A stretch of 58,982 nt of DNA, taken from positions 1-58,982 of the forward strand of contig JAFXGY010000040.1 in the NCBI GenBank assembly GCA_017536625.1, in the 5' to 3' direction. Source of the stretch: Oscillospiraceae bacterium. Lineage in GTDB: Bacteria > Bacillota > Clostridia > Oscillospirales > Ruminococcaceae. This document shows, one piece after another, positions 18,446-45,490 of this stretch. Numbering within the stretch: position 1 is the stretch's first letter; each line of letters begins with the position of its first letter. The translations under genes and the position numbers were made by a program. A model generated the notes under the pieces. The model was not told the origin of the DNA. It ran no database searches and saw only the letters and a list, made by a program, of their open reading frames with translations.

Positions 18446-18943
18446 TTAATCAAGCCTTATTTTTTTGAATCTGTTGATAACAATTCCGGAAACGATTCCG
18501 ATGACGATTCCGGTTGCCGTTCCGGTAATAAGAAGCACCGGAAGATAAAGGGCAATCTGTTTTGTTCCAAGAAGGATAACCGCCATAATAATCTGTCCGA
18601 CGTTATGCATAATTCCGCCTGCGACGGAAACGCCGATGACGGAAAATTTATCGGTTTTCTTAAGAATCCACATCACCCCAAGGGAAAGCACCGCGCCAGC
18701 AATGCTGTAAGCCATTGCCATAACGTTGCTGAAAAGGAGCGAAACAAGAATTACCCTTATAAGTGAAACAAGGATTGCTTCCTTTGTGCCGATTTTATAA
18801 AGCACAAAGATTATAACTATATTTGCAAGGCCCATTTTGATTCCCGGAACCGCAAAGGAAAGGGGAACAAGAACCTCTATATACGACATTATCATCGCAA
18901 GGGCAATGCAAAGCCCAAGCATAGCAACTTTTTTTGTTTTCAT
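18446..18943 (-). CDS. Gx transporter family membrane protein, EetB-like
   Basis: The 165-residue hydrophobic protein begins MKTKKVAMLGLCIALAMIMS and has glycine-rich helices containing GIKMGLANIVIIFVLY and GGIMHNVGQIIMA. This is the Gx transporter / heptaprenyl diphosphate synthase component I family (Hpre_diP_synt_I). Members are found with NusG-II proteins and Rnf or ApbE genes, and one is EetB of Listeria-type extracellular electron transfer loci; a role in moving a flavin or quinone-related ligand has been suggested but is not settled. The start codon directly follows the stop of the NusG-II gene. It is the last gene of the minus-strand block led by rnfC. Confidence 0.83.
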   Translation of the reverse strand: MKTKKVAMLGLCIALAMIMSYIEVLVPLSFAVPGIKMGLANIVIIFVLYKIGTKEAILVSLIRVILVSLLFSNVMAMAYSIAGAVLSLGVMWILKKTDKFSVIGVSVAGGIMHNVGQIIMAVILLGTKQIALYLPVLLITGTATGIVIGIVSGIVINRFKKIRLD

Positions 18944-19327
18944 TTAAGACACCAGATCAACTTCAGCCTCTTGGGGGCCTTCAATAGTAATTACGGTTTT
19001 GTTCGGAAGGCAGGTAATAGCCTCACCGGTTTTGCTTATGGAACGCTGGTCAACGCAGACATGATCCGGGCAGGAAGCTTCGGTGATATCTGCCTTGCCG
19101 TCCTTTATAACAAGGATATTATATCCGCCGTTTTCAGATTCAAGGCGGATTTCAGCATCGGTATCAAGCGGATATTTTTCCGTAACGACGCTGTCCACGG
19201 TTACGACGGCGAAAGCACCGTCTTCTTTCAAAAGCTCGAATCCAAGCCAGATTCCGGCGGCGGCAATAATTACCGCGGCGCCAAGGATTAAGTCGTTTCT
19301 GAATTTTTTATCTTTAAACATATCCAT
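18944..19327 (-). CDS. NusG domain II protein, membrane-anchored, EetA-like
   Basis: The 127-residue protein has one N-terminal membrane helix (residues 13-30) and an extracytoplasmic NusG_II domain with ENGGYNILVIKDGKADI and the cysteine-containing EASCPDHVCVDQ. The same domain with CPDxxC is typical of the small proteins encoded next to Gx transporters and of EetA in flavin electron-transfer loci. The CxxxxC pair could be redox-active or metal-binding. The ribosome site is weak (ACTCAATGG). A hairpin lies between rnfB and this gene, so expression may be partly uncoupled from rnf. Confidence 0.82.
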   Translation of the reverse strand: MDMFKDKKFRNDLILGAAVIIAAAGIWLGFELLKEDGAFAVVTVDSVVTEKYPLDTDAEIRLESENGGYNILVIKDGKADITEASCPDHVCVDQRSISKTGEAITCLPNKTVITIEGPQEAEVDLVS

Positions 19328-19339
19328 TGAGTTTTTTTA

Positions 19340-19375
19340 ACGCTCCGCCGCAAAATGCGGCGGAGCGTTTTTCCT
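19340..19375. terminator. Hairpin between rnfB and the NusG-II gene
   Basis: CGCTCCGCCGCA and TGCGGCGGAGCG form a very stable stem. The T run lies on the plus-strand side; on the minus strand, where rnf is transcribed, the stem is followed by TTAAAAAAAC. It may attenuate or stabilise the rnf mRNA rather than end it. Confidence 0.55.
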
Positions 19376-19394
19376 TTTAAAAGAGATTTTGCAA

Positions 19395-20195
19395 TTATGC
19401 TTTGAGCATGGAAAGGCAGCCAACGGGACAATCGGAAACGCATTTTCCGCAGCCGATGCATTTTTCATAATCAACGGTTGCAAGGAAGTTTTCGACTTTG
19501 ATTGCCTCTGCGGGGCAGTTCTTCTGGCATTTCATGCAGCCGATACAGCCATTCTGGCATTCTTTGCGAACGACAGCGCCTTTTTCATGGTTGGAGCAGG
19601 TGATGACTGCTTTTTCAGCTTTGGGAACCAGAGAGATAAGGTGGTTGGGGCATTTTGCAACGCAAAGTCCGCAGCCTGCGCATTTTCTGGGGTCAACTTT
19701 TGCAATGCCGTTTACGATGCAGATAGCATCGCTGGTGCAAACGGTTGCGCAGTCTCCGCAGCCAAGGCAGCCATAAAGGCAAGCGCCTTTGCCGCCATAA
19801 AGCATTTTTGCGGCAGCACAGGAATTGAGTCCCTGATAAATTTCTTTCTGGACCTGTTTGTTGCAGTCACCGCCGCAATGAACAAAGGCGGTGAGGGGTT
19901 CTGCGGCTTCGGCTTCAACACCGAGAACTGCGCAGAGAGCGCTGGTGGTTGCTTCGCCGCCGGGACGGCAAAGGTTTGCGGGGGTTCCGGGAACTTCTGC
20001 AAGAGCTTTTGCGTAAGCATCGCAACCGGAAAAACCGCAGGCGCCGCAGTTTGCGCCCGGAAGACAGTCGCGTGCTTCGGCTTCGATGGGGTTGGTTTTA
20101 ACGCCCATGAAAGTATCAGCGAGAACAAGAAGAATTGCGCAGGCAAGGCCGATTCCGGCAACAACAAGGGTAGCGTTCAATATAATTTCAGTCAT
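19395..20195 (-). CDS. rnfB: Rnf complex subunit B, iron-sulfur protein
   Basis: RnfB takes electrons from reduced ferredoxin and passes them through the membrane part of Rnf. The 266-residue product has an N-terminal membrane helix, the [4Fe-4S] motif GANCGACGFSGCDAYA, then ferredoxin-type clusters: CLGCGDCATVCTSDAICI, CAGCGLCVAKCPNHL, CIGCMKCQKNCPAEA and CIGCGKCVSDCPVGC. The four CxxCxxCxxxC sets match clostridial RnfB. AAGGAG precedes the ATG. It is the last rnf gene in the order C-D-G-E-A-B. Confidence 0.97.
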   Translation of the reverse strand: MTEIILNATLVVAGIGLACAILLVLADTFMGVKTNPIEAEARDCLPGANCGACGFSGCDAYAKALAEVPGTPANLCRPGGEATTSALCAVLGVEAEAAEPLTAFVHCGGDCNKQVQKEIYQGLNSCAAAKMLYGGKGACLYGCLGCGDCATVCTSDAICIVNGIAKVDPRKCAGCGLCVAKCPNHLISLVPKAEKAVITCSNHEKGAVVRKECQNGCIGCMKCQKNCPAEAIKVENFLATVDYEKCIGCGKCVSDCPVGCLSMLKA

Positions 20196-20210
20196 CTTTT
20201 TATTATCTCC

Positions 20211-20801
20211 TTATGCGAAGAGTTTATCGATAATGCCGCCGAAGCCCATGAATGCAACAGAAACAATGGATGCTGCAACAAGGGTGATCGGAATGCCTTT
20301 GAAGCATTCGGGAGCATCTGCCTCTTCAAGACGATTTCTTACGCCGGCGAAGAGCCACATCGCAAGAAGGAAGCCAAGTCCGCAGCCGAGGGAGCTTGCC
20401 ATGGATTCAACAAAGCTGTATTCAGCAGTAATGTTGTTGATGGTAACGCCAAGAACTGCGCAGTTGGTGGTGATGAGAGGAAGATAAACGCCAAGGGATC
20501 TGTGGAGTGCGGGGATGAATTTTTTGAGGAAGATCTCAACAAACTGAACAAGAGCAGCGATTACAAGAATGAAAACGATGGTCTGAAGATATCCAAGTTC
20601 GTTGGGGTCGAGAAGATAGGTCTGGATGGGCCAGGTTGCGGCGGTTGCAACAAGCATTACGAAAATAACGGAAACGCCCATGCCGACTGCCTGGTCGGAT
20701 TTTTTGGAAACGCCGAGGAAGGGGCAGATGCCGAGGAACTTGCTGAGAACATAGTTATCAACAAGAACAGCACTCATAATGATGATAAGAAGTTCTTTCA
20801 T
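20211..20801 (-). CDS. rnfA: Rnf complex subunit A
   Basis: The 196-residue protein has six membrane helices and begins MKELLIIIMSAVLVDNYVLS with the family motif KFLGICPFLGVS. RnfA and RnfE are inverted homologues that bind an iron-sulfur cluster between their half-helices within the membrane; the conserved cysteines (GICPF and TTNCAVLG) are visible. The start overlaps the rnfE stop by one base. Confidence 0.97.
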   Translation of the reverse strand: MKELLIIIMSAVLVDNYVLSKFLGICPFLGVSKKSDQAVGMGVSVIFVMLVATAATWPIQTYLLDPNELGYLQTIVFILVIAALVQFVEIFLKKFIPALHRSLGVYLPLITTNCAVLGVTINNITAEYSFVESMASSLGCGLGFLLAMWLFAGVRNRLEEADAPECFKGIPITLVAASIVSVAFMGFGGIIDKLFA

Positions 20802-21487
20802 TATTTAGATTCCTCCTTTACATCAGTTTCGCAGCTTTCTTTATTGCAAGCTGCGGCATTGGGGCAGCCTTCGCAGGAGAAGGATTTCTTTGCGGGGGCT
20901 TTGCCGGAAGTGATTTTTGCAACGAGAGCAACAAGGCAGCCGAATGCAAGGAAACCACCGGGAGAAGCTGTCATGATGGAAACAGCGTAATCTTTGATTA
21001 CGGGAATTTCAATTCCTGCCCAGGTGCCTGCGCCGATAACTTCACGGAAGGAAGCCATGAGAACAAGTGCAAGGGTAAAACCGATTCCCATGCCAAGACC
21101 GTCGAGTGCGGAATCGATAACGCCGTTTTTGCGTGCGAACATTTCGGCACGGCCGAGAATGATGCAGTTTACTACGATGAGTGCAAGATAAACGCCGAGC
21201 ATATCGTAAAGATCCGGGAAGTATGCGTGCATAAGCATCTGAACAACGGAAACGAAGCCTGCGATAACAACGATATAGCAGGGAATGCGGACTTTGTCCG
21301 GAACTGCTTTGCGGAGCATGGAAATTACGATGTTGGAGCAGAAGAGAACTGCGGTTGCGGCAATGCCCATTGCAAGTGCGGAAACAACTCCGGTGGTGGT
21401 TGCAAGTGCGGGGCAGGTGCCAAGAAGGAGAACAAGAACGGGGTTCTCCTTAATAATGCCTTTGGAGAAAATTTCACATTTTTTCAT
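20801..21487 (-). CDS. rnfE: Rnf complex subunit E
   Basis: The 228-residue membrane protein is homologous to RnfA, with GIIKENPVLVLLLGTCPALA at the N-terminus and VVNCIILGRAEMFARKNG as the conserved cysteine half-helix region. It has a C-terminal soluble tail with four cysteines (CEGCPNAAACNKESC), an extension that could bind a metal and is not in all homologues. One-base overlaps (TAATG) with rnfG and rnfA indicate tight coupling. Confidence 0.96.
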   Translation of the reverse strand: MKKCEIFSKGIIKENPVLVLLLGTCPALATTTGVVSALAMGIAATAVLFCSNIVISMLRKAVPDKVRIPCYIVVIAGFVSVVQMLMHAYFPDLYDMLGVYLALIVVNCIILGRAEMFARKNGVIDSALDGLGMGIGFTLALVLMASFREVIGAGTWAGIEIPVIKDYAVSIMTASPGGFLAFGCLVALVAKITSGKAPAKKSFSCEGCPNAAACNKESCETDVKEESK

Positions 21488-22755
21488 TATCCGACAACCT
21501 CCTTAATGAGATTGAAAGCTTCGAAAGCGCTGTTGAAGTTGCTTGCAACTGCGTTTGCGGTCATGGTTGCACCGGCAACAAGGGTCATATCATCGGAATA
21601 AGTGCTTTCGGAAAGGCCGACGAACTGTGCTCTGTAAGCGCCTTCATCGGTAAGCTCATGTGCGGAATAATATTCACCGTGAAGAATAAGTTCGGTAAGG
21701 GTTTTATAAACAACGATTTCGCCGTTTGCGTTGAAGATAGTAAGCATCTTCATTGCTTCATCGCCATAGCCGAGAGGCTGGGTGATTACTGCATACTGGG
21801 TTTCTTCACCAACGGTTACGGTGAATGCTGCGGTTACGTCTTCAAATCCGCCAAGGTTTTCAACAGGGGTTACAACTGCGCCTTCTTCGAAGCAGGCTGC
21901 AACGGTTGCGGTGTTTGCTTCAAGGTTTGCGGTTGCGATTACGGGGTTTGCAGCTGCTGCGGTTTCAATAAGACCTGCGCAGTCTGCGGTGATATCGCTG
22001 CCGTCAAGGCTGTAAACTCTGCCGACACCGAATGCGTTGATACCGACGATAACGGAACCATAGCTGCCGCCGTTCATTACGTAAATATAACCGCAGTTAT
22101 TCTTTGCTTTATAAGCCTGGGTGATCGGGTCAGAGAATCCTTCGATAGGATCTGCGATCGGAATATTGGTTGCGTTGACGCATCCGGAAAGTGCAAGAGG
22201 AAGTGCTTCGGAAATAAGCTGTTCTTCGCTCTTCTGTGCTTCTGCAACAAGGTTGTTTTCAATAAGAACATTGAAAGCGGAAGTAATGGAATCTTTGAAT
22301 GCGACGGAAGAATAAGTGCATCCTGCAACAAGAGTGATGTCTGCAAGAGTGGAGTTCTGGCCGACATAGCTCTGGGGATAATCGGGACCGAAGTCTTTGG
22401 AATCATAATAGCCGGTAAGCTCAACAGCGGAAATGGTGCCGGTGGCATCAATTGCAACGGTAAAGGTCATGGGATTGCCGCCGGAATAATCGGAAGTTGC
22501 GTTTACAAGCATTACGAAGCCGAGTCCGGAGGTTTCTTTATAAACGCCGGTTACGGTTTCGGGAAGGGTAAGGCTCGGGGTAAGATCTTCAAAACCGGTT
22601 GCATCGGGCATAACGATGGTAAGAGATTCGTTTGCGGCTGCAGCCTGGTTTTCGGCAATGATAGGTGCGGTGATGGAGTTGGTGTATGCAAGAAGAACCG
22701 CAACAACAAGGCAGATAGCAGTAAGAACGACTACGCTTTTAATGTTTTCTTTCAT
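21487..22755 (-). CDS. rnfG: Rnf complex subunit G, double-length with two FMN-binding-like domains
   Basis: RnfG is the extracytoplasmic subunit carrying covalent FMN. The usual length is about 190-220 residues; this one has 422. After one membrane helix (7-26) it has a first FMN-binding-like domain (about 55-185) with LVAGCTYSSVAFKDS, and a second (about 205-415) with LVAGATMTANAVASNF. The second has the classical [S/A]GATxT flavinylation motif. The first has GCTYS, which keeps the acceptor threonine but not the alanine. The protein may therefore carry one or two flavins outside the membrane. ApbE, the transferase, is encoded 4 kb away. It overlaps rnfD by four bases. Confidence 0.93.
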   Translation of the reverse strand: MKENIKSVVVLTAICLVVAVLLAYTNSITAPIIAENQAAAANESLTIVMPDATGFEDLTPSLTLPETVTGVYKETSGLGFVMLVNATSDYSGGNPMTFTVAIDATGTISAVELTGYYDSKDFGPDYPQSYVGQNSTLADITLVAGCTYSSVAFKDSITSAFNVLIENNLVAEAQKSEEQLISEALPLALSGCVNATNIPIADPIEGFSDPITQAYKAKNNCGYIYVMNGGSYGSVIVGINAFGVGRVYSLDGSDITADCAGLIETAAAANPVIATANLEANTATVAACFEEGAVVTPVENLGGFEDVTAAFTVTVGEETQYAVITQPLGYGDEAMKMLTIFNANGEIVVYKTLTELILHGEYYSAHELTDEGAYRAQFVGLSESTYSDDMTLVAGATMTANAVASNFNSAFEAFNLIKEVVG

Positions 22756-23711
22756 GCTTTAACACCTCCAAACGGTTTTTTCATGGTCCATTTGTCAATA
22801 TAAGGATTGAGAATGTTCATGAAGAGGATAGAGAAGGAAACGCCTTCCGGATAGCTTCCATAGAAACGGATGAGGGTGGTGATGATTGCGCATCCGAGTG
22901 CAAAGACAATTTTGCCTTTTGCGGTGGAAGGGGAGGTAACATAGTCGGTTGCCATGAAGATAGCGCCGATGAAGGTACCGCCGGAAAGGGTGTAATAAAG
23001 TGCAAGGGTCATATCACCGGTGATGAGATAAGCAAAAGCAAAAACAGCGCCGATGAAAACAACGGGGGTGTGCCAGGTGATGACTTTGCGTACTACAAGA
23101 TAAATTCCGCCAAGGAGAAGTCCTGCTGCGCAGGTTTCGCCAAGAGCACCGCCGCGAACGCCGAGGAACATATCCATAAGTGAAGTGCTTTCCATGAAAG
23201 CAGAAACAGCGTCGCCGCCCTGGGGAAGAACGGAAAGGGGAGTTGCGTATGTAGCAACGTCAACTTCTGCGGATTTGGGCGGAACTGCAGCAGCCATGGT
23301 GCCGGTGAATGCGATGAGCATTACAACACGGGCGGTGATGGCAGGGTTTGCAAAGTTGCAGCCGATGCCGCCGAAAAGGCATTTGGTGATTACGATTGCA
23401 ACGAAGGAACCGACAACTGCCTGCCAAACGGGAAGGGTTGCGGGAAGGTTCATCGCAAGGATAAGACCGGTAACTACTGCGGAAAGGTCGCCGATGGTGG
23501 TGGGGCGATGGCAGAGTTTGGTGAAAAGGAACTCGAAGAGAACGCAGGAAGCTACGCATACTGCGCAAAGGATAGCGGCGTTCATTCCAAAAATCACAAC
23601 GCCTGCGATTGCTGCAGGAAGAAGTGCGATTACAACGTCAAGCATGACGTTGGTGGTAGTTCTTTTTCCGTGAACATGAGGAGATACGGAAACAATAAGA
23701 TTATTATCCAT
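22752..23711 (-). CDS. rnfD: Rnf complex subunit D
   Basis: The 319-residue membrane protein begins NLIVSVSPHVHGKRTT, the conserved start of RnfD/NqrB. It carries a covalent FMN on the threonine of IFMATDYVTSPST, which is present near residue 265. GGIGCNFANPAITARV and GGAGxxLxETC-like segments complete the family pattern. It forms the membrane core with RnfA and RnfE that couples electron flow to ion translocation. Start and stop overlap rnfC and rnfG. Confidence 0.97.
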   Translation of the reverse strand: MDNNLIVSVSPHVHGKRTTTNVMLDVVIALLPAAIAGVVIFGMNAAILCAVCVASCVLFEFLFTKLCHRPTTIGDLSAVVTGLILAMNLPATLPVWQAVVGSFVAIVITKCLFGGIGCNFANPAITARVVMLIAFTGTMAAAVPPKSAEVDVATYATPLSVLPQGGDAVSAFMESTSLMDMFLGVRGGALGETCAAGLLLGGIYLVVRKVITWHTPVVFIGAVFAFAYLITGDMTLALYYTLSGGTFIGAIFMATDYVTSPSTAKGKIVFALGCAIITTLIRFYGSYPEGVSFSILFMNILNPYIDKWTMKKPFGGVKA

Positions 23712-25051
23712 TATTTATTTTCCTCCTCTTTCTTTTTCTGTTCAGCAAGCTTGGTCTGGTAAGCACGAAGCTCTGCCTTTGCAAGTTTGTTTCTGTGAAC
23801 GATCATGCGGTGTGCGGGGCAAACGAAAACGCAGGCGCCGCATTCCATGCAGATGTTTACTTTGGTTTTTGCAATCTCTGCGCCGTCGCCGGATTTGAGT
23901 GCTTTTGCAATTGCGGGCGGGTTAAGGTTGAGCGGGCAGTGGTTGATGCAGTTGCCGCAGCGGATGCAGGGGGTTTCATCCGGAAGAGTTGCGTCCTTGT
24001 CGTTGAAAGCAAGGATTGCGTTGGTGTTCTTGAGGATGGGTTCATCAAGGGTGGGAACCGCAATACCCATCATGGGGCCGCCGTACATAACTTTTCTGGG
24101 TTCTTCTTTAAAGCCGCCGCAGAAGTCAAATACGTCTTTCATGGAAGTGCCGATGGGGGCGATTACGTTTTTGGGGGTTGCAACTGCGGAACCGTCAACG
24201 GTAAGGCACTTTTCAACAAGGGGCATACCGGTTCTGACATATTCTGCGATGCATGCAAGGGTGGTTACGTTCATAACAATGCAGCCGACATCAAGGGGAA
24301 GTTTGCCTTCCGGAACGGTTTTGCCGGTGGTGTTGTAAATAAGAACTTTCTCACCGCCCTGGGGATATGCTGCGGGCATGGGTTTTACAACGATTGCGCT
24401 GTCTTTTTTGGAAAGTTCCTGCATTGCTTTGATAGCCTGGGGTTTGTTATCTTCGATGCCGATGATAACTTTTTTAACTCCGAGATATTTTTCAAGGAGC
24501 TGGATACCTTCGAAAATATCGTCTGCTCTGTCGGTCATGGTAAGGGTATCAGCGGTGATGTAGGGTTCACACTCTGCACCGTTGAGGACTACTTCCTGAA
24601 CCTTGGAGAGATCTTTTACGGAAAGTTTTACGAAGGTGGGGAAGCCTGCGCCGCCGAGACCGACAATGCCGCTTGCGCGGACTGCTGCTACGAATTCATC
24701 ATAGTTGGTAACGGTGGGCGGAACAACGCTTTCGTGGGGGCGCATTTCACCGTCGGATTCGATGGTGATGGCGGTCATGGTGCCGCCGTTGCTGTTGGCC
24801 ATGGTATCGATTTTTTTGACGGTACCGGAAACAGAAGCGTGAACAGGAGCGGAAATGAATCCTGCTGCTTCGCCGATGACCTGACCGACGCCTACGGTAT
24901 CACCGACATTTACGACGGGTTTTGCAGGTGCGCCGATGTGCTGTGCCATGGGGATGACTACAGTTTTCGGAATAGGCATACGTTCCGGGTGGCAGTCAGC
25001 GGTGTGCTTTCTGTGGGGAACGTGAACGCCTTTGATGCCGAAAAGGGACAT
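23711..25051 (-). CDS. rnfC: Rnf complex subunit C, NADH-binding
   Basis: The 446-residue cytoplasmic subunit exchanges electrons with NAD. It begins MSLFGIKGVHVPHRKHTA, then has the NADH/FMN site VGLGGAGFPTFVKL, the LNGAECEPYIT motif, and two [4Fe-4S] motifs CIRCGNCINHCPLNLNP and CMECGACVFVCPAHRMI. An in-frame start at 25117 would add 22 residues, but AAGAGG lies eight bases before the ATG at 25051 and the family starts here. It is the first gene of the rnf operon, with a promoter at 25132-25161. Confidence 0.97.
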   Translation of the reverse strand: MSLFGIKGVHVPHRKHTADCHPERMPIPKTVVIPMAQHIGAPAKPVVNVGDTVGVGQVIGEAAGFISAPVHASVSGTVKKIDTMANSNGGTMTAITIESDGEMRPHESVVPPTVTNYDEFVAAVRASGIVGLGGAGFPTFVKLSVKDLSKVQEVVLNGAECEPYITADTLTMTDRADDIFEGIQLLEKYLGVKKVIIGIEDNKPQAIKAMQELSKKDSAIVVKPMPAAYPQGGEKVLIYNTTGKTVPEGKLPLDVGCIVMNVTTLACIAEYVRTGMPLVEKCLTVDGSAVATPKNVIAPIGTSMKDVFDFCGGFKEEPRKVMYGGPMMGIAVPTLDEPILKNTNAILAFNDKDATLPDETPCIRCGNCINHCPLNLNPPAIAKALKSGDGAEIAKTKVNICMECGACVFVCPAHRMIVHRNKLAKAELRAYQTKLAEQKKKEEENK

Positions 25052-25131
25052 GGACAAAAACCTCTTTTCTATTTCTGCGTTCTTTGGTTTGTTTATTTTT
25101 TGACGTATTTCAGTCAATCTAAACCGAGTAT

Positions 25132-25161
25132 ATTATATTACAACCTTTATTTAAAAGTCAA
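25132..25161 (-). promoter_or_regulatory. Promoter of the rnf operon
   Basis: Minus-strand TTGACT (25156-25161) and TATAAT (25132-25137) with an 18 bp spacer, about 80 bp ahead of rnfC. Confidence 0.6.
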
Positions 25162-25192
25162 TCAGTAAATCCTACTTATTATAACATTTTAA

Positions 25193-25219
25193 GACAAAGT
25201 TTTTGTCAGTTTCGACAAA
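25193..25219. promoter_or_regulatory. Operator-like cluster between rnfC and the lipoprotein gene
   Basis: Three GACAAA half-sites alternate in orientation: GACAAA (25193-25198), TTTGTC (25202-25207), GACAAA (25214-25219). They form two overlapping palindromes, and the larger one pairs TTTTTGTC with GACAAAAA. They lie between the divergent rnf and lipoprotein promoters, where a shared repressor or activator would be expected. Confidence 0.4.
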
Positions 25220-25341
25220 AAGCCCGAAGGCGAATTGTTGAAAAAATCAAAAGAATCTGTCGTCTTTTGTGAATTTGCGAAAAAAGTTTTCCAAAAACAG
25301 AAAAATTTATGTAATTTTATGATAATTTAATAACATAACGC

Positions 25342-25370
25342 TTGACAAATCACATTTCTGTGACTATAAT
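25342..25370 (+). promoter_or_regulatory. Consensus vegetative promoter of the two-repeat lipoprotein gene
   Basis: TTGACA (25342-25347) and TATAAT (25365-25370) are perfect consensus hexamers with the ideal 17 bp spacer. The start near 25377 leaves a leader of about 67 nt. The promoter predicts very strong expression. Confidence 0.88.
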
Positions 25371-25443
25371 ATATGCTGAATTACGGCGTAAAGTCGTAAT
25401 AGAAAAAAGAAAAAAATAAAATTGAAAGTTGGGAGTATTTATT

Positions 25444-26520
25444 ATGAAAAAACTTCTCGCAATGCTTCTCGCACTCGTAATGGTTCTCTCCTTCGCAGCT
25501 TGCTCCAACGAAGAGCCTGTTGAAGAACCTACCGACGATCCCGTAGTAGAAGAACCCACCGACGAACCCGAAGAAGAACCTACCGAAGAACCCGCTGCAG
25601 CAACCTATACCCTTGGTATGGGCGTATCCGCTTCCACCGGTTCCACCAAAGACGGCAATGCACAGGCTGACGTAACTGTTGCAGTTGTTGTTCTCGACGC
25701 AGAAGGCAAAATCGTTAAAGCACAGATCGACTGCGCACAGACCAAACTCAACACTGCTGAATTCCCTGCAGACCTCTCCACCGTTGATGTACGTTCCAAA
25801 TGGACCAAAAAAGAAGATTACGGCATGGTCGTAGCTTCCCCCATCGGTGCAGAATGGTACACCCAGGTTGACGCTCTCGAAGAAGCTGTTGTCGGCATGA
25901 CCGCTGCAGATCTCGAAGCTCTCGAACTCGTAGAATCCAACGGCCACATGGTAACCACCAACGAAGCAATCTACGCTGGCTGCACCATGGATATGACCGG
26001 CTTCAAAGCTGCTCTTGTTAAAGCTTGCAACGACGAATACGCAAAAGAATTCTCTGCTGATTCCTTCACCCTTGGTCTCGCAGTAGAAACTTCTGTTGGT
26101 TCCTCCAAAGCTGCAACTGCTGATGCTGCTGGCCTTGCTGCTCTCTACACCAACTTCACTGGTGTTGCTTACGACGCTGAAGGCAAAGTTCTTGCTTGCC
26201 TCCTCGACGTAATCCAGGTTAAAATCAGCTTCGACGCTGCTGGCGTTTGCACTCAGCCCGAAGACCTCAGAACCAAAAAAGAACTCAAAGGCGATTACGG
26301 CATGCTTCCTGCATCTGCAATCGGTGTTGAATGGATGGATCAGGCAACCGCTTTCGAAGCAGCTGTTGTTGGCATGACTGCTGAAGAAGTTGCTGCAATC
26401 GAAACCGTTGAATCCAACGGCCATCAGGTTCCTGCAGACGAAACCCTCCATGCAGCTTGCTCCATGGATATCACTGGTTTCCAGTCCGGTTTCACTGCTT
26501 CTCTTAACAACGTTAAATAA
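25444..26520 (+). CDS. Surface lipoprotein with two repeats carrying FMN-attachment-like motifs
   Basis: The 358-residue product has a lipoprotein signal ending LSFAAC (Cys20), an acidic proline-rich spacer (21-55), then two homologous domains of about 150 residues. Matching segments are GKIVKAQIDCAQTK with GKVLACLLDVIQVK, EEAVVGMTAADLEAL with EAAVVGMTAEEVAAI, and IYAGCTMDMTGF with LHAACSMDITGF. The last pair resembles the flavinylation region of RnfG (VAGATMTAN, VAGCTYSS). With rnf divergent and apbE downstream, I infer a flavin-bearing electron carrier analogous to the two-domain lipoprotein PplA of Listeria. No named family is recognised. The start is the ATG after GGGAG. Codon use is strongly biased (CTC, GAA, AAA), unlike most neighbours, fitting high expression. 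Confidence 0.8.
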   Translation: MKKLLAMLLALVMVLSFAACSNEEPVEEPTDDPVVEEPTDEPEEEPTEEPAAATYTLGMGVSASTGSTKDGNAQADVTVAVVVLDAEGKIVKAQIDCAQTKLNTAEFPADLSTVDVRSKWTKKEDYGMVVASPIGAEWYTQVDALEEAVVGMTAADLEALELVESNGHMVTTNEAIYAGCTMDMTGFKAALVKACNDEYAKEFSADSFTLGLAVETSVGSSKAATADAAGLAALYTNFTGVAYDAEGKVLACLLDVIQVKISFDAAGVCTQPEDLRTKKELKGDYGMLPASAIGVEWMDQATAFEAAVVGMTAEEVAAIETVESNGHQVPADETLHAACSMDITGFQSGFTASLNNVK

Positions 26521-26545
26521 TTTTAACTGAATTAAGAAATAATAG

Positions 26546-26576
26546 AAGGGGGATTTTAATCCCCCTTTTATTTTTA
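26546..26576 (+). terminator. Terminator of the lipoprotein gene
   Basis: AGAAGGGGGATT and AATCCCCCTTTT pair with a TT loop and are followed by a T-rich tail. Confidence 0.88.
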
Positions 26577-26692
26577 TATTACCCCTCAGTTAAAAAATAA
26601 AGGAACCATTTTTTCCAAAATTCCGATAAGAACGTTTTGTGATAATAAAACGCTGTTACCGAAATTTTGTAAAGTTTAAACAGGAGGAAAAT

Positions 26693-27757
26693 ATGAAGAA
26701 GATTCTTTCCCTTTTGCTTTCCGTGCTCATGCTCATGGGTGTTTCCGGCTGTGCTCAAAACGAACCGCTTCCGGAAGAACCGCAGAAAAACAGCTATTCC
26801 GCAAGATATTATGATTATTTCGATACCGAATCTCTGATAATCGGTTACGAAGAAAGCCAGGAAGATTTTGATGCTGTCTGCGCTGTTATCAAAGAAGAGC
26901 TGGAGCATTATCATCAGCTTTATGATATATATCATTGGTATGACGGAATAAACAATGTTTATACCGTAAACCGCGATGCGGGAACCGCCCCGGTTGAAGT
27001 TCACGAAGATATCATCGCGCTTTTTGAATTTTGCAGAGAGATGTATGACCTTACCGGCGGAAAGACCAACTTTGCCATGGGAAGGGTGCTCAGCCTTTGG
27101 CATGAATGCAGGGAAGATTATAACTACAGCCCTCTTTCTGTCGAACTTCCCACCGATGAGGAACTTTCCGTTGCGGCAAGCCACATGAACATCGACGATA
27201 TCGTTATCGATAAAGAAAACAACACGATATTTTTCAAAGATCCCGGTCTTAAAGTTGACGTTGGCGCCATAGGAAAAGGCTATGCAACCGAAATGGTCGC
27301 GCGCAAACTCGAAGAAATGGGCGTTGATAATTACACTTTGAGCATCGGCGGAAATATCCGCACCATTGGCGGAAAAGCTGACGGCAGCAAATGGGTCGCA
27401 GGCATCACCAATCCGGACAGAACTTCGGAAGAACCTTTCCTTCTCAAGGTCCAGTTTGAAAGCCTTGCTCTTGTAACCAGCGGTTCCTATCAGCGTTATT
27501 TTTATTATGATAACGTGAAATATCACCATATAATCGACCCCGAAACCCTTTATCCGAAGGATACCTTCACTTCCGTTTCGATTCTTACTCCGGATTCGGG
27601 TCTTGCAGATGCGGTTTCCACCGCTTGCTTTAACCTCACCCTTGAGGAAGGCATGGCGCTCATAGAATCTTTGGAAAACACCGAAGCCATGTGGGTCGAA
27701 CCGGACGGAACGGAACATTATTCTTCCGGTTTTCTCGATTTCCTTTACGAAGAATAA
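26693..27757 (+). CDS. apbE: FAD:protein FMN transferase, lipoprotein
   Basis: ApbE attaches FMN from FAD to a threonine or serine of exported proteins, including RnfG, RnfD and extracellular flavoproteins. The 354-residue product has a lipoprotein signal (GVSGCAQ), FDTES near the start, GGKTNFAMGRVLSLWHE, VDVGAIGKGYATE, LSIGGNIRTIGGK, and SGSYQRYFYYDNVKYHHI followed by IDPETLYP, all classic ApbE blocks. AGGAGG lies just before the ATG at 26693; an upstream in-frame start is rejected. It is the natural maturation enzyme for the rnf products and for the adjacent lipoprotein. Confidence 0.96.
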   Translation: MKKILSLLLSVLMLMGVSGCAQNEPLPEEPQKNSYSARYYDYFDTESLIIGYEESQEDFDAVCAVIKEELEHYHQLYDIYHWYDGINNVYTVNRDAGTAPVEVHEDIIALFEFCREMYDLTGGKTNFAMGRVLSLWHECREDYNYSPLSVELPTDEELSVAASHMNIDDIVIDKENNTIFFKDPGLKVDVGAIGKGYATEMVARKLEEMGVDNYTLSIGGNIRTIGGKADGSKWVAGITNPDRTSEEPFLLKVQFESLALVTSGSYQRYFYYDNVKYHHIIDPETLYPKDTFTSVSILTPDSGLADAVSTACFNLTLEEGMALIESLENTEAMWVEPDGTEHYSSGFLDFLYEE

Positions 27758-35267: not shown

Positions 35268-37301
35268 TTATAAAAAGAGTTTTGACATTATATTTATAAA
35301 AAAGCAGAGCGAAAGCCCGGTTATAAGCGGAACGACAGTGGAAAGAAGAACCCACTTGATGCTTTTTGTTTCTTTTTGTATTGTAATAAGGGTGGTTGCG
35401 CAGGGCCAGTGGAAAAGAAAGAATATGGCTGTGCAAAGCGCGGTAATTCCGCTGAATCCGTTTGCGGAAAAAAGCGCAGCAGTTTTTGCCATGGAGCCAA
35501 GTTCCGAAAGTTCTCCGCCGGCATATCCCATTGCCATTATGGGAAGGGCAATTTCGTTTGCGGGGAAGGAAAGAAGAAAGCCGCAGAAAATCGTTCCGTC
35601 AAGCCCGAAAATCTTTGCAAAGGGGTCAAAAGCGGCGGAAAGAATTCCGAGCACCGTTCTGCCATCAATAATAATATTTGAGCACAGCCAGATTATTATC
35701 CCGGCGGGAACAGCGACGATTATTGCCCGCCAAAGGATTTTAAGAGTTCTGTCAAAGATGGAACGGATGATTACTTTGCCAAAATCGGGCATTCTGTATG
35801 GCGGAAGTTCAAGGGTGAATCCGGTCGGAACACCTTTCAGAACGGTTTTTGAAAGAATTTTTGATACAATAAAAGTCATGAGCACGGAAAAAGCAACCGC
35901 AAGAGTAAGAATTGCAGCTCCGAGCACGGACGAATCCGTGAAAAACATTGAAGTAAGCGCAATTATCGCCGGAAGCCTTCCGTTGCAGGGCATAAAGCTG
36001 TTTGTGATTATGGAAATCAGCCTTTCCCTTGGGGAATCGATTATTCTTGCGCCGGTTACGCCAACAGCTCCGCAGCCAAGCCCCATGCACATTGTAAGAG
36101 CCTGTTTTCCGCATGCTCCTGCGGATTTAAAGCCTCTGTCAAGGTTGAAAGCCACCCTCGGAAGATAGCCGATATCCTCCAGAATTGTGAAAAGCGGAAA
36201 GAAAATCGCCATTGGCGGAAGCATCACCGCCACCACCCAGCCAAGGACTTTCCATACCCCGTCAACGAGCAGACTTTTGAGCACCAAAGGAGCATTGGCG
36301 GCGGAAAGCAAAGCTTCGAGCCATGTTCCAACCTTTTCAAATGCAAGCGAAAGCCACGCGGAAGGATAGTTTGCGCCGGAAACGGTTATCCAGAAGATAA
36401 AACCGAAAAGCAGAAGCATGATGGGAATTCCAAGGAGCCTTCCGGTGAGCACGGAATCTATTCTGTCATCTTTCAAGCGGTGCTCGCTTCTGCTCGCCGA
36501 TACTGCCGAAAGGCAGATTTCTTCTGCGCGGAAAACATTGCAGGATGCAATTTTTGCCGCAATATCTTCTTCTGCAATACCTTCATCTGCAAGATGAAGG
36601 ATGGCTTTTTCCCTTTCTGATGCGGTTTTTTCGCCGTGGCCGAAGCACTTTTCAAGTTCCAAGGCAAAGCCGTGCTCGTTTTCGAGCACCCTGAGCACGG
36701 GAAAAACCGTTTTGAATCCGAAATCTTCGAAAACAGCGGGGGCAAGTGCTTTTATTGCATTTTCAAGGGCTTTCGGGTATCTTATCGGAATAAATTCCGG
36801 TGCCGGTTCTTCCAGAAGTTTAAGCATGGCGGCTTTAAGCTCTTCGATTCCTTCACCCTTTGCGGCGGAAATTCCGATTGCGGGAAGTCCGGTTTCTTCT
36901 GAAAGAGCCTTGATATCAATTTTTATTCCTTTTTTCTCAGCATCGTCAAGCATATTTACGCAAAGAAGCGTTTTTGGAATAAGCTGGGCAGTCTGCAGTG
37001 CAAAAATAAGACCGCGTTCAAGGCAGCAGGCATCGCAAAGGATAACGGCACCGTCAAATTCTTCGAAGCAAAGAAAATTCCTTGTAATTTCCTCCTCGGC
37101 GGAATCGGTTATCAGGGAATATGTACCCGGAAGATCGATCAGCTCGATTTCTTTTCCGCCGGCTTTGAATCTTCCTTTTGCGGTGCCGACTGTTTTTCCG
37201 CTCCAGTTGCCGGTGTGCTGCTTCATGCCGGTAAGGGAATTGAAAAGGGTGCTTTTACCAACATTCGGATTTCCCGCAAGAACGATTTTTCCGTATATCA
37301 T
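35268..37301 (-). CDS. feoB: Ferrous iron transporter FeoB
   Basis: The 677-residue product has an N-terminal G domain with GNPNVGKST at residues 10-18, DLPGTYSL (G3) and a G4-like NMLDD, a helical linker, and a polytopic membrane domain with two Gate repeats (CGxxxPAI-like NGRLPAIIALTSMF). FeoB imports Fe(II) under anoxic conditions. It overlaps feoA by four bases. FeoC is absent, as in most Firmicutes. Confidence 0.96.
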   Translation of the reverse strand: MIYGKIVLAGNPNVGKSTLFNSLTGMKQHTGNWSGKTVGTAKGRFKAGGKEIELIDLPGTYSLITDSAEEEITRNFLCFEEFDGAVILCDACCLERGLIFALQTAQLIPKTLLCVNMLDDAEKKGIKIDIKALSEETGLPAIGISAAKGEGIEELKAAMLKLLEEPAPEFIPIRYPKALENAIKALAPAVFEDFGFKTVFPVLRVLENEHGFALELEKCFGHGEKTASEREKAILHLADEGIAEEDIAAKIASCNVFRAEEICLSAVSASRSEHRLKDDRIDSVLTGRLLGIPIMLLLFGFIFWITVSGANYPSAWLSLAFEKVGTWLEALLSAANAPLVLKSLLVDGVWKVLGWVVAVMLPPMAIFFPLFTILEDIGYLPRVAFNLDRGFKSAGACGKQALTMCMGLGCGAVGVTGARIIDSPRERLISIITNSFMPCNGRLPAIIALTSMFFTDSSVLGAAILTLAVAFSVLMTFIVSKILSKTVLKGVPTGFTLELPPYRMPDFGKVIIRSIFDRTLKILWRAIIVAVPAGIIIWLCSNIIIDGRTVLGILSAAFDPFAKIFGLDGTIFCGFLLSFPANEIALPIMAMGYAGGELSELGSMAKTAALFSANGFSGITALCTAIFFLFHWPCATTLITIQKETKSIKWVLLSTVVPLITGLSLCFFINIMSKLFL

Positions 37302-37534
37302 GGAATTTTCACCCCCAAAATTCCGGAAGAATCCTCGCTCCGAAGGGCAATTACCGACCCGCGGACCAGGAATGCCTTCGGGTCACCAAAGGGGCTTATC
37401 CTTACGCACCGAACTTCCGTGCCCTCCACAAAACCCATATCCATCAGCCTTTGGCGAAGCTTTTCGCATGTTTTTATTTCCCGGATCACTGCTTTTTCTC
37501 CTTTTTTTATATCGGAAAGCGGAATCAGCCGCAT
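37298..37534 (-). CDS. feoA: FeoA, SH3-like regulator of FeoB
   Basis: The 78-residue SH3-like protein begins MRLIPLSDIKKGEKAVIREI and has LRQRLMDMGFVEGTEVR and RGSVIALRSED, the usual FeoA features. GGGAGAG lies five bases before the ATG at 37534; an upstream in-frame start adds 14 unconserved residues. It overlaps feoB by four bases. Confidence 0.94.
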   Translation of the reverse strand: MRLIPLSDIKKGEKAVIREIKTCEKLRQRLMDMGFVEGTEVRCVRISPFGDPKAFLVRGSVIALRSEDSSGILGVKIP

Positions 37535-37715
37535 AAAATCTCTCCCTTGTTTTTTTATTGGTTTTACCCTTACCAAAATATGAAAAAAGCGGACTGCGGG
37601 TTAAATTTAAACAATTATTGAGATTTTATATTCAGTTTGTTCGCAATTTCCGATGACTTTTGCAGTAAAATATAGTAAAATAAATATGTAATATTTTTAT
37701 GGAGGAGGCTTTTTT

Positions 37716-38172: not shown

Positions 38173-38733
38173 ATGAGAAAAAATTTCGGCGCAAAGCCAA
38201 TGGTATATCCCATGCCCGTATTCATTCTTGCGGCTTATGATGAAAACGGCGTTCCGGACGCAATGAACGCCGCCTGGGGTGGAATCTGCGGAAGCGATGA
38301 GATTTGCATGGCCATAAGCCCGAACCACAAAACCACCAAAAACTTCCTCGCAACCGGTGCTTTCACCGTCAGCATGGCGGATGCGGAGCACGTAGTTGCA
38401 TGCGATTACGTCGGGGTTGAATCCGCAAACAAAGTTCCGGATAAATTTGAAAAAGCGGGCTTCCACGCCACCAAATCCGAATTTGTGAACGCTCCGATTA
38501 TCGATGAACTTCCCATGGCGCTGGAATGCGAAGTGAAAAGCTATGACCCGGAAAGCCATATTCTCATCGGAAAAATCATCAATATCTGCGCGGATGAGAA
38601 AATTCTTAACGAGAACGGAAAAATCGACCCGGCGAAGCTTCGCCCCATTACTTTTGACGCGGCAAACAGTAAATATATCGCCCTTGGCGAAATTGTCGGC
38701 AACGCCTTCAGCGACGGCAACGCACTTAAATAA
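38173..38733 (+). CDS. Flavin reductase-like FMN-binding split-barrel protein
   Basis: The 186-residue product has MVYPMPVFILAAYDENG at the N-terminus, a NAAWGGICGSDEICMAIS strand pair, and HKTTKNFLATGAFTVSMA. This is the flavoredoxin/flavin reductase family seen in anaerobes, which binds FMN in a split barrel. The substrate is unknown. The ATG has ACGGAGG upstream. Confidence 0.92.
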   Translation: MRKNFGAKPMVYPMPVFILAAYDENGVPDAMNAAWGGICGSDEICMAISPNHKTTKNFLATGAFTVSMADAEHVVACDYVGVESANKVPDKFEKAGFHATKSEFVNAPIIDELPMALECEVKSYDPESHILIGKIINICADEKILNENGKIDPAKLRPITFDAANSKYIALGEIVGNAFSDGNALK

Positions 38734-45246: not shown

Positions 45247-45428
45247 GTCAGATGAAGTTCGCAGGAAAAAGCTTTTTTGCTTGCCGAAGGAGTAACACTC
45301 TCAGGCGTTCCGTTTTCGGAATAAGGACTGTGAATGGATGAAAGACTGGAGAAGTTCGCTTAATGCGGATGCCGAAGGTGCAAGCTCCCGGATTTTCGGG
45401 GTGAATCTCTCAGGCAAAAGGACAGTTT
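45247..45428 (+). promoter_or_regulatory. Tandem glycine riboswitch
   Basis: Two glycine aptamers in series. The first has GCCGAAGGAGTAACACTCTC, then AGGCG and AAGGACTGTGAA; the second has GCCGAAGGTGCAAGCTCCCG, then AATCTCTCAGGCAAAAGGAC. The GCCGAAGG, CTCTCAGG and AAGGAC blocks are diagnostic. It lies directly ahead of an alanine/glycine symporter gene, a known arrangement for sodium:amino acid symporters. The second aptamer leads into a terminator-type expression platform. Confidence 0.95.
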
Positions 45429-45490
45429 TTTTCGATAGCTTGAAGCAAGGGTAGGGGATACCTTTGCCATAACTTTCGATTTTTGTTTCC

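Follow-up and report, generated by a model that had tools for sequence, protein, structure and literature searches.

Rnf, ApbE and a PplA-like lipoprotein may form a flavin-based electron-export module in an Oscillospiraceae bacterium

Which membrane complex could supply electrons to a flavin-carrying lipoprotein where the Ndh2 and quinone of flavin-based extracellular electron transfer (FLEET) are not found? The question is raised by positions 18446 to 27757 of a 58,982-nucleotide stretch of Oscillospiraceae DNA (GenBank assembly GCA_017536625.1, contig JAFXGY010000040.1), the whole of which we call the window. On the minus strand, the genes for all six Rnf subunits (C, D, G, E, A and B) share one direction and are followed by eetA (NusG_II) and eetB (PF07456); divergent from these, on the plus strand, lie the gene for a two-repeat lipoprotein and then apbE. 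We consider it an evenly balanced proposition that the locus works as a flavin-based export module for electrons, with Rnf replacing Ndh2 and quinone and feeding a PplA-like flavolipoprotein, so that the bacterium may export electrons with parts that are mostly known but newly combined. The gene set, order, strands and positions had been proposed from the sequence alone (hereafter the initial annotation) and were borne out by open reading frames and by Pfam and NCBIfam profile searches of each protein. The features are:

18446..18943, minus strand: eetB-like gene ('Gx'; Pfam Hpre_diP_synt_I), PF07456, E 2.2e-40
18944..19327, minus strand: eetA-like gene, NusG domain II protein, PF07009 (NusG_II), E 9.1e-29
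19395..20195, minus strand: rnfB, TIGR01944 above cut-off
20211..20801, minus strand: rnfA, TIGR01943 above cut-off
20801..21487, minus strand: rnfE, TIGR01948 above cut-off
21487..22755, minus strand: rnfG, 422 aa, two FMN_bind-type acceptor sites, PF04205 in two stretches, E 8.5e-10, above cut-off
22752..23711, minus strand: rnfD, TIGR01946 above cut-off
23711..25117, minus strand: rnfC, TIGR01945, E 1.3e-144
25132..25161, minus strand: probable rnf operon promoter, TTGACT-18-TATAAT, by sequence pattern
25342..25370, plus strand: lipoprotein promoter, TTGACA-17-TATAAT, a perfect sigma-A-type consensus (12/12 bases)
25380..25400, plus strand: lipoprotein leader hairpin, 8 pairs and a 5-nt loop, by conservation and folding energy
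25444..26520, plus strand: PplA-like two-repeat lipoprotein, 358 aa, with lipobox; predicted acceptors T181 (AIYAGCT) and S340 (TLHAACS)
26541..26572, plus strand: intrinsic-terminator-like hairpin in the gap between lipoprotein and apbE, by sequence pattern
26693..27757, plus strand: apbE, flavin transferase with a lipobox (by eye), PF02424, E 2.3e-64

The genome that holds the window (1.9 Mb, 97% complete) yielded one ApbE, one EetB (PF07456) and one protein with a Pfam FMN_bind match, RnfG; the rnfC of the window is the sole match above the curated cut-off listed for it. Full-length FLEET-type Ndh2 was found in none of the 15 genomes of the window genus, five of which gave weak partial matches (E 9e-5 to 4e-7), and was present in 3 of the 31 other genomes searched. 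UbiA prenyltransferase, a quinone-synthesis enzyme, was detected in none of the 10 genus genomes searched, while a control matched 14/14. With no Ndh2 and no evidence of quinone synthesis, Rnf is the only membrane donor identified beside the lipoprotein. These results, together with the adjacency of Rnf in several layouts, support the suggestion of the initial annotation that Rnf occupies the place of the dehydrogenase.

Within the genus the lipoprotein occurs in 13 of 15 genomes, at 14 loci, 13 of them beside apbE and 12 near rnfC; the contig in genome G001 is short. The two genomes that lack it are G007, in which no ApbE was found either, and G011, in which ApbE, and rnfC with eetB, lie on other contigs. 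At least four further arrangements bring lipoprotein and rnf genes together. Locus L047 reads rnfCDGEAB-lipoprotein-apbE-FMN_bind-feoA-feoB, all co-directional, and the same genome (G054) has a second locus, L063, laid out much like the window. L066 and L080 read ndh2-dmkB-dmkA-lipoprotein-apbE-rnfCDGEAB-eetB, and in L050 the lipoprotein gene is followed by rnfC at the contig end, with no apbE between them. L097 and L124 have eetA-eetB-lipoprotein-apbE-rnfC-D-G without rnfE, rnfA or rnfB; here rnfC-rnfD-rnfG (L097:5147-8453 and L124:12226-15479) are followed by a gene for a ~140-aa protein without a Pfam match, and in L124 a DUF1622 protein gene precedes the lipoprotein gene. The same rnfC-D-G layout is present at L052:4532-7797, where rnfC and rnfD were identified by tblastn and the rest, including rnfG, by eye. 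The genomes of L124 and L052 carry a full Rnf elsewhere; RnfA gave no match in G121, the genome of L097, an absence that is provisional because this is a metagenome-assembled genome. The loci without E, A and B possibly encode a stripped Rnf electron exporter.

To place the lipoprotein itself, we relied on a contig scan that required one peptide pattern and returned 468 relatives, which make up a large family in Firmicutes. The named loci are the best 79 of these 468, and several reach contig ends. In 76 of the 79, apbE adjoins the lipoprotein gene; of the others, L109 and L134 end at the contig end right after the gene and L091 is a true miss. The initial annotation had made conservation of the neighbourhood with apbE a check on its proposal, and the 76-genome set agrees, with apbE adjoining in 21 of 28 loci. 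Those 28 have E 3.5e-26 or better, the next row (1.0e-6) covering only query 1-61, and the counts for lipoprotein, rnfC, apbE and eetB in this set omit weak rows; a tally of 62/120 genomes with the lipoprotein was rejected because many rows match the signal peptide alone (query about 1-60). With proteins of the Anaerocolumna locus L066 as queries, FLEET-type ndh2 was found in 47 of the 79 named loci, dmkB in 49, dmkA in 46 and eetB in 40; NusG_II was found in 32. The names of the L066 ndh2, dmkA and dmkB come from their Pfam/NCBIfam families (NCBIfam under curated cut-offs) and from position. This company of ndh2, dmkB, dmkA and apbE implies that the family holds the PplA position in clostridial FLEET-like loci, a slot that the initial annotation had assigned to the window lipoprotein and that is seen in its relatives, not in the window itself. 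As a separate observation, L035:4482-10214 encodes a 1910-aa protein in which leucine-rich and dockerin-like regions were recognised by eye and which carries the two-repeat domain of the lipoprotein at its C-terminus; the species of L035 also carries a normal lipoprotein locus.

The two repeats of the window lipoprotein share 41% identity across 150 alignment columns (E 2e-35). In an alignment of 102 lipoproteins (101 distinct loci, since L064 and query L048 are one locus, as are L072 and L053; some are 5'-truncated), the acceptor position is Ser or Thr in both repeats of all 102, and Asp or Glu stands at -6 in both repeats of 97. Asp was rejected as the acceptor: in the published motif, Dxx[ST]GA[ST], FMN is carried by the final Ser/Thr, and it is this residue that the conserved T/S of the family aligns with. 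A relaxed motif occurs 1.86 times per sequence versus 0.03 in shuffled sequences, but the family served to define it; it is found twice in 91 of the 102, and the window copy is outside those 91. The family profile matches 2KZX (E 1.9e-6; 3.4e-4 with one repeat), the DAISGAT of 2KZX aligning with the acceptor, and the 2KZX fragment is itself a Pfam FMN_bind match (E 1.7e-5, 25.8 bits versus a cut-off of 22); an RnfG-type profile gave no match to 2KZX at E<=1. These profile matches link the lipoprotein to the FMN_bind superfamily through 2KZX as an intermediate. AlphaFold2 models (pLDDT 92.6 for two repeats, 91.8 for a single repeat) place in each repeat three strands, helices, the acceptor and a final helix. 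The predicted order is much like that of the FMN-binding domains described in PMC10339131. The lipoprotein is probably loaded with flavin.

RnfG, the candidate partner of the lipoprotein, is enlarged and scores 37.5 bits against TIGR01947, under the cut-off of 102. Two FMN_bind-type sites in this 422-aa protein, AGCT and AGAT, had escaped the initial annotation, and the acceptor Thr is kept at both in 13/13 sequences (12 from the genus and L063). RnfD has ATPL at residue 156, which we take to be the usual RnfD flavin site. Because the sites in RnfG and in the lipoprotein are both degenerate, the single ApbE found would need to accept both. Its best match in the Protein Data Bank (PDB) is 7ESA (E 5.3e-37), in a sequence group that includes 7F39; the stretches TSG..R, HHI.DP and aDa.STA are kept in the alignment to 7ESA, and the Ser, His and Asp active-site residues were matched by eye. 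7F39 is from Listeria monocytogenes (PMC12052999).

EetB is described as the S subunit of an energy-coupling factor (ECF) exporter that supplies ApbE with FAD, and Listeria lacking eetA retained wild-type EET activity (PMC9973259). We therefore rejected EetA/EetB as an electron conduit, and the view of the initial annotation that they are part of electron export was given up; by analogy, the EetB-like protein of the window is probably the ECF-S subunit of a FAD exporter. The same source places eetB beside Rnf in 572 Clostridia genomes, consistent with the statement of the initial annotation that NusG-II/Gx genes are known associates of Rnf.

From the genes and their conservation we infer FMN attachment, electron transfer from RnfG to the lipoprotein and an acceptor outside. 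EetB and EetA would assist FAD export, and the lipobox ApbE would put FMN on RnfD, on both RnfG sites and on the lipoprotein repeats. Electrons from NADH or ferredoxin would pass from RnfC/RnfB to RnfD and RnfG; part of them would go from the second flavin of RnfG to the lipoprotein, and from there to an outside acceptor such as ferric iron, free flavin or another reductase. The main idea of the initial annotation is thus plausible and strengthened, with parts that are mostly known and a different role for EetAB.

The initial annotation called the lipoprotein strongly promoted, and the perfect TTGACA-17-TATAAT hexamers are indeed invariant in all 12 genus sequences aligned; of the rnf promoter, these 12 share the second hexamer without exception, and the first is one base off in L034 and L038. 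A promoter scan gave 22 promoter-like sites in 10 kb versus 12 expected, so that weaker promoter-like sites carry little meaning. The leader hairpin is conserved in the genus, with a two-sided (compensatory) change in L038; its minimum free energy is -9 kcal/mol, with z of -2.9 in the window, -2.9 in L032 and -1.8 in L038, and the pattern drawn from it has a single match in the whole window, itself. It could be an mRNA stabiliser or an operator. The lipoprotein gene has the strongest codon bias (effective number of codons, ENC, 29.3), and the bias is strong in the six rnf genes too (31.2-35.1); it is weaker in eetB and eetA (40.0 and 41.5), in apbE (43.6) and in four other window genes (43.3-48.4). 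The pattern of promoter, codon bias and terminator would fit an abundant redox protein with a scarcer modifying enzyme.

How does the locus compare with known systems? With the FLEET of Listeria (Ndh2, DmkA/B, PplA, FmnB, EetA/B) it shares ApbE/FmnB, EetA, EetB and a candidate two-site flavolipoprotein, whose relatives stand in ndh2-dmkB-dmkA-lipoprotein-apbE loci. It differs in that the window genome has no detected full-length Ndh2 or UbiA and Rnf is adjacent instead. The two acceptors are 151-165 residues apart in the family (159 in the window) versus 122 in Listeria PplA (T143/T265, PMC8906456), so that a domain subtype unlike that of PplA is likely, as compared by spacing, not sequence. 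FMN-bind2 domains, found by BLAST, are ~160 aa long and often occur in two copies, whereas the FMN-bind1 core is ~120 aa (Huang et al. 2024, PMC10979944/PMC11334425). The lipoprotein repeats are like FMN-bind2 pairs in length and pairing, and the family may well be that published pair, matched by description only. A second outward path has been described as likely where RnfG is multi-flavinylated (Meheust et al. 2021, PMC8238504); our locus shares the multi-site RnfG with such complexes and differs in having a separate lipoprotein as candidate receiver. The claim of the initial annotation that neither the lipoprotein family nor the full assembly had been described holds in part: the family may already be known as FMN-bind2, but we recognised no paper on a lipoprotein-Rnf locus. 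No report of a PplA-like lipoprotein and Rnf in one locus was among the literature matches listed, in a search that did not extend to subscription journals and supplements.

The main rival to the export reading is that a single ApbE and a single FAD exporter serve Rnf (through RnfG and RnfD) and the lipoprotein independently. Rnf would then pump ions as usual, as a ferredoxin:NAD+ complex, and the lipoprotein would be a redox protein flavinylated by ApbE that receives its electrons from elsewhere, perhaps from free reduced flavin or a second complex. We regard this as possible and somewhat improbable. A number of observations, here and in the next paragraph, weigh against electron export through Rnf. 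A shared need for ApbE would cluster rnf and lipoprotein genes as well, and one ApbE and one EetB were found in the genome, as the rival calls for. Of the 14 lipoprotein loci that the 76-genome set contains outside the genus, a single one is within 10 kb of an above-cut-off rnfC, and among the 79 named loci rnf is nearby in just 4, 2 of which also have ndh2. The conservation with rnf that the initial annotation had asked for is therefore lineage-specific: it holds at 12 of 14 genus loci and in several layouts elsewhere, but it is rare beyond the genus, and in 47 of the 79 named loci the lipoprotein has an Ndh2 neighbour. Rnf itself is commonly beside apbE and eetB without the lipoprotein: of the 71 above-cut-off rnfC loci of that set, 30 have eetB, 28 apbE and 13 the lipoprotein within 10 kb, and for the 58 outside the genus the numbers are 18, 16 and 1. 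The statement that Rnf is the only donor is limited, since complex I, hydrogenases and cytochromes were not searched for in the window genome, and this genome has a second, very divergent Rnf-like cluster (L143:1751-5224, contig C14). That cluster encodes an RnfC-like protein (348 aa), an RnfD-like protein with a charged tail, an RnfE-like and an RnfA-like protein, with no RnfG or RnfB match within the 9 kb examined, and may be an alternative donor. The Cad/cAD1-precursor is a lipoprotein with two sites, of the SGAT/TGAT type, whose gene is coupled to apbE as well as to ndh2 and prenyl genes, and cad-apbE pairs are reported, for the Cad branch, only in rnf-less genomes (PMC7074142); the window shows the opposite. 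Against the rival stand L097 and L124, whose rnfC-D-G without E, A and B keep the lipoprotein and apbE (with no RnfA match in G121), the co-directional rnf-lipoprotein-apbE-feo order of L047, the adjacent lipoprotein and rnfC of L050 and a genus in which no full-length Ndh2 or UbiA was detected.

Other points concern flavin attachment. For the window lipoprotein, Pfam gave nothing at E<=0.01 and NCBIfam no name; FMN_bind (PF04205) matched neither it, nor its two halves, nor 48 family members, among which Pfam matched 12 families, with 1-2 members each. Its FMN motif thus rests on alignment. The strict ApbE motif Dxx[ST]GA[ST] is present in 0 of the 102 lipoproteins, so that of the two FMN-attachment-like motifs of the initial annotation the acceptor residue stands, but the canonical motif and a direct Pfam FMN_bind assignment do not. 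By sequence, the attachment motif is degenerate in the family and most so in the window copy, where each repeat has lost its Asp at -6 and the second acceptor is Ser, in AACS; Asp is likewise lost in both repeats of L032, L033, L034 and L035, and DLYAGCT is retained in L036-L043 of the genus. Foldseek gave no match in the PDB at E<=0.001, whether with two repeats modelled or with one, and hhalign of the lipoprotein profile with four RnfG-type sequences gave no significant match. The RnfG sites of the window are not strict either, having Ala at -3 where the motif has Ser/Thr. L. plantarum PplA was important for ferrihydrite reduction, not for anode current (PMC8837199). In fumarate reductase, Asp to Ala had a minor effect on flavinylation, Gly to Ala and Ala to Val gave ~50%, and Ser was tolerated as acceptor with a lower degree of flavinylation (PMC12052999). 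We consider it unlikely that the window lipoprotein lost or never had covalent FMN and is an FMN_bind-like scaffold with another role (ligand, non-covalent flavin, metal), beside apbE by ancestry: the missing strict motif, the lost Asp and the unmatched FMN_bind would suit this, but the invariant acceptor in both repeats, the near-constant apbE neighbour and the flavinylation of degenerate fumarate reductase sites (PMC12052999) argue against it.

Returning to electron export through Rnf, a more specific form of it can be put forward only tentatively. In Clostridia-like anaerobes that apparently lack quinone synthesis, Rnf would be a branched valve, whose enlarged RnfG feeds electrons of NADH or ferredoxin to an abundant PplA-like flavolipoprotein on the outer side of the membrane, and in other species a stripped RnfC-D-G would act as exporter for this lipoprotein family; parts of Rnf would have been repeatedly recruited as one-way exporters, contrary to the published exclusion of cad-apbE and rnf. 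If the export reading is true, Rnf does more than the ion pumping for which it is best known and also exports electrons, in anaerobes where no Ndh2-quinone route can be recognised; there is then a testable path of ferric iron or flavin reduction independent of Ndh2 or menaquinone. The lipoprotein family, with its degenerate ApbE site (DLxSSVT / YAGCT), would be missed by surveys that use Pfam FMN_bind or the strict motif.

The feoA-feoB genes right after rnf-lipoprotein-apbE-FMN_bind in L047 hint that ferric iron reduction is coupled to uptake. Separately, feoA-feoB are present in the window at 35268-37576, about 7.5-10 kb from apbE, and near them, at 38173-38733, is the gene for a flavin-reductase-like protein (PF01613, E 2.5e-15). 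The window also contains a tandem glycine riboswitch with two aptamers at 45252-45430 (Rfam RF00504) and RNase P RNA at 392-741.

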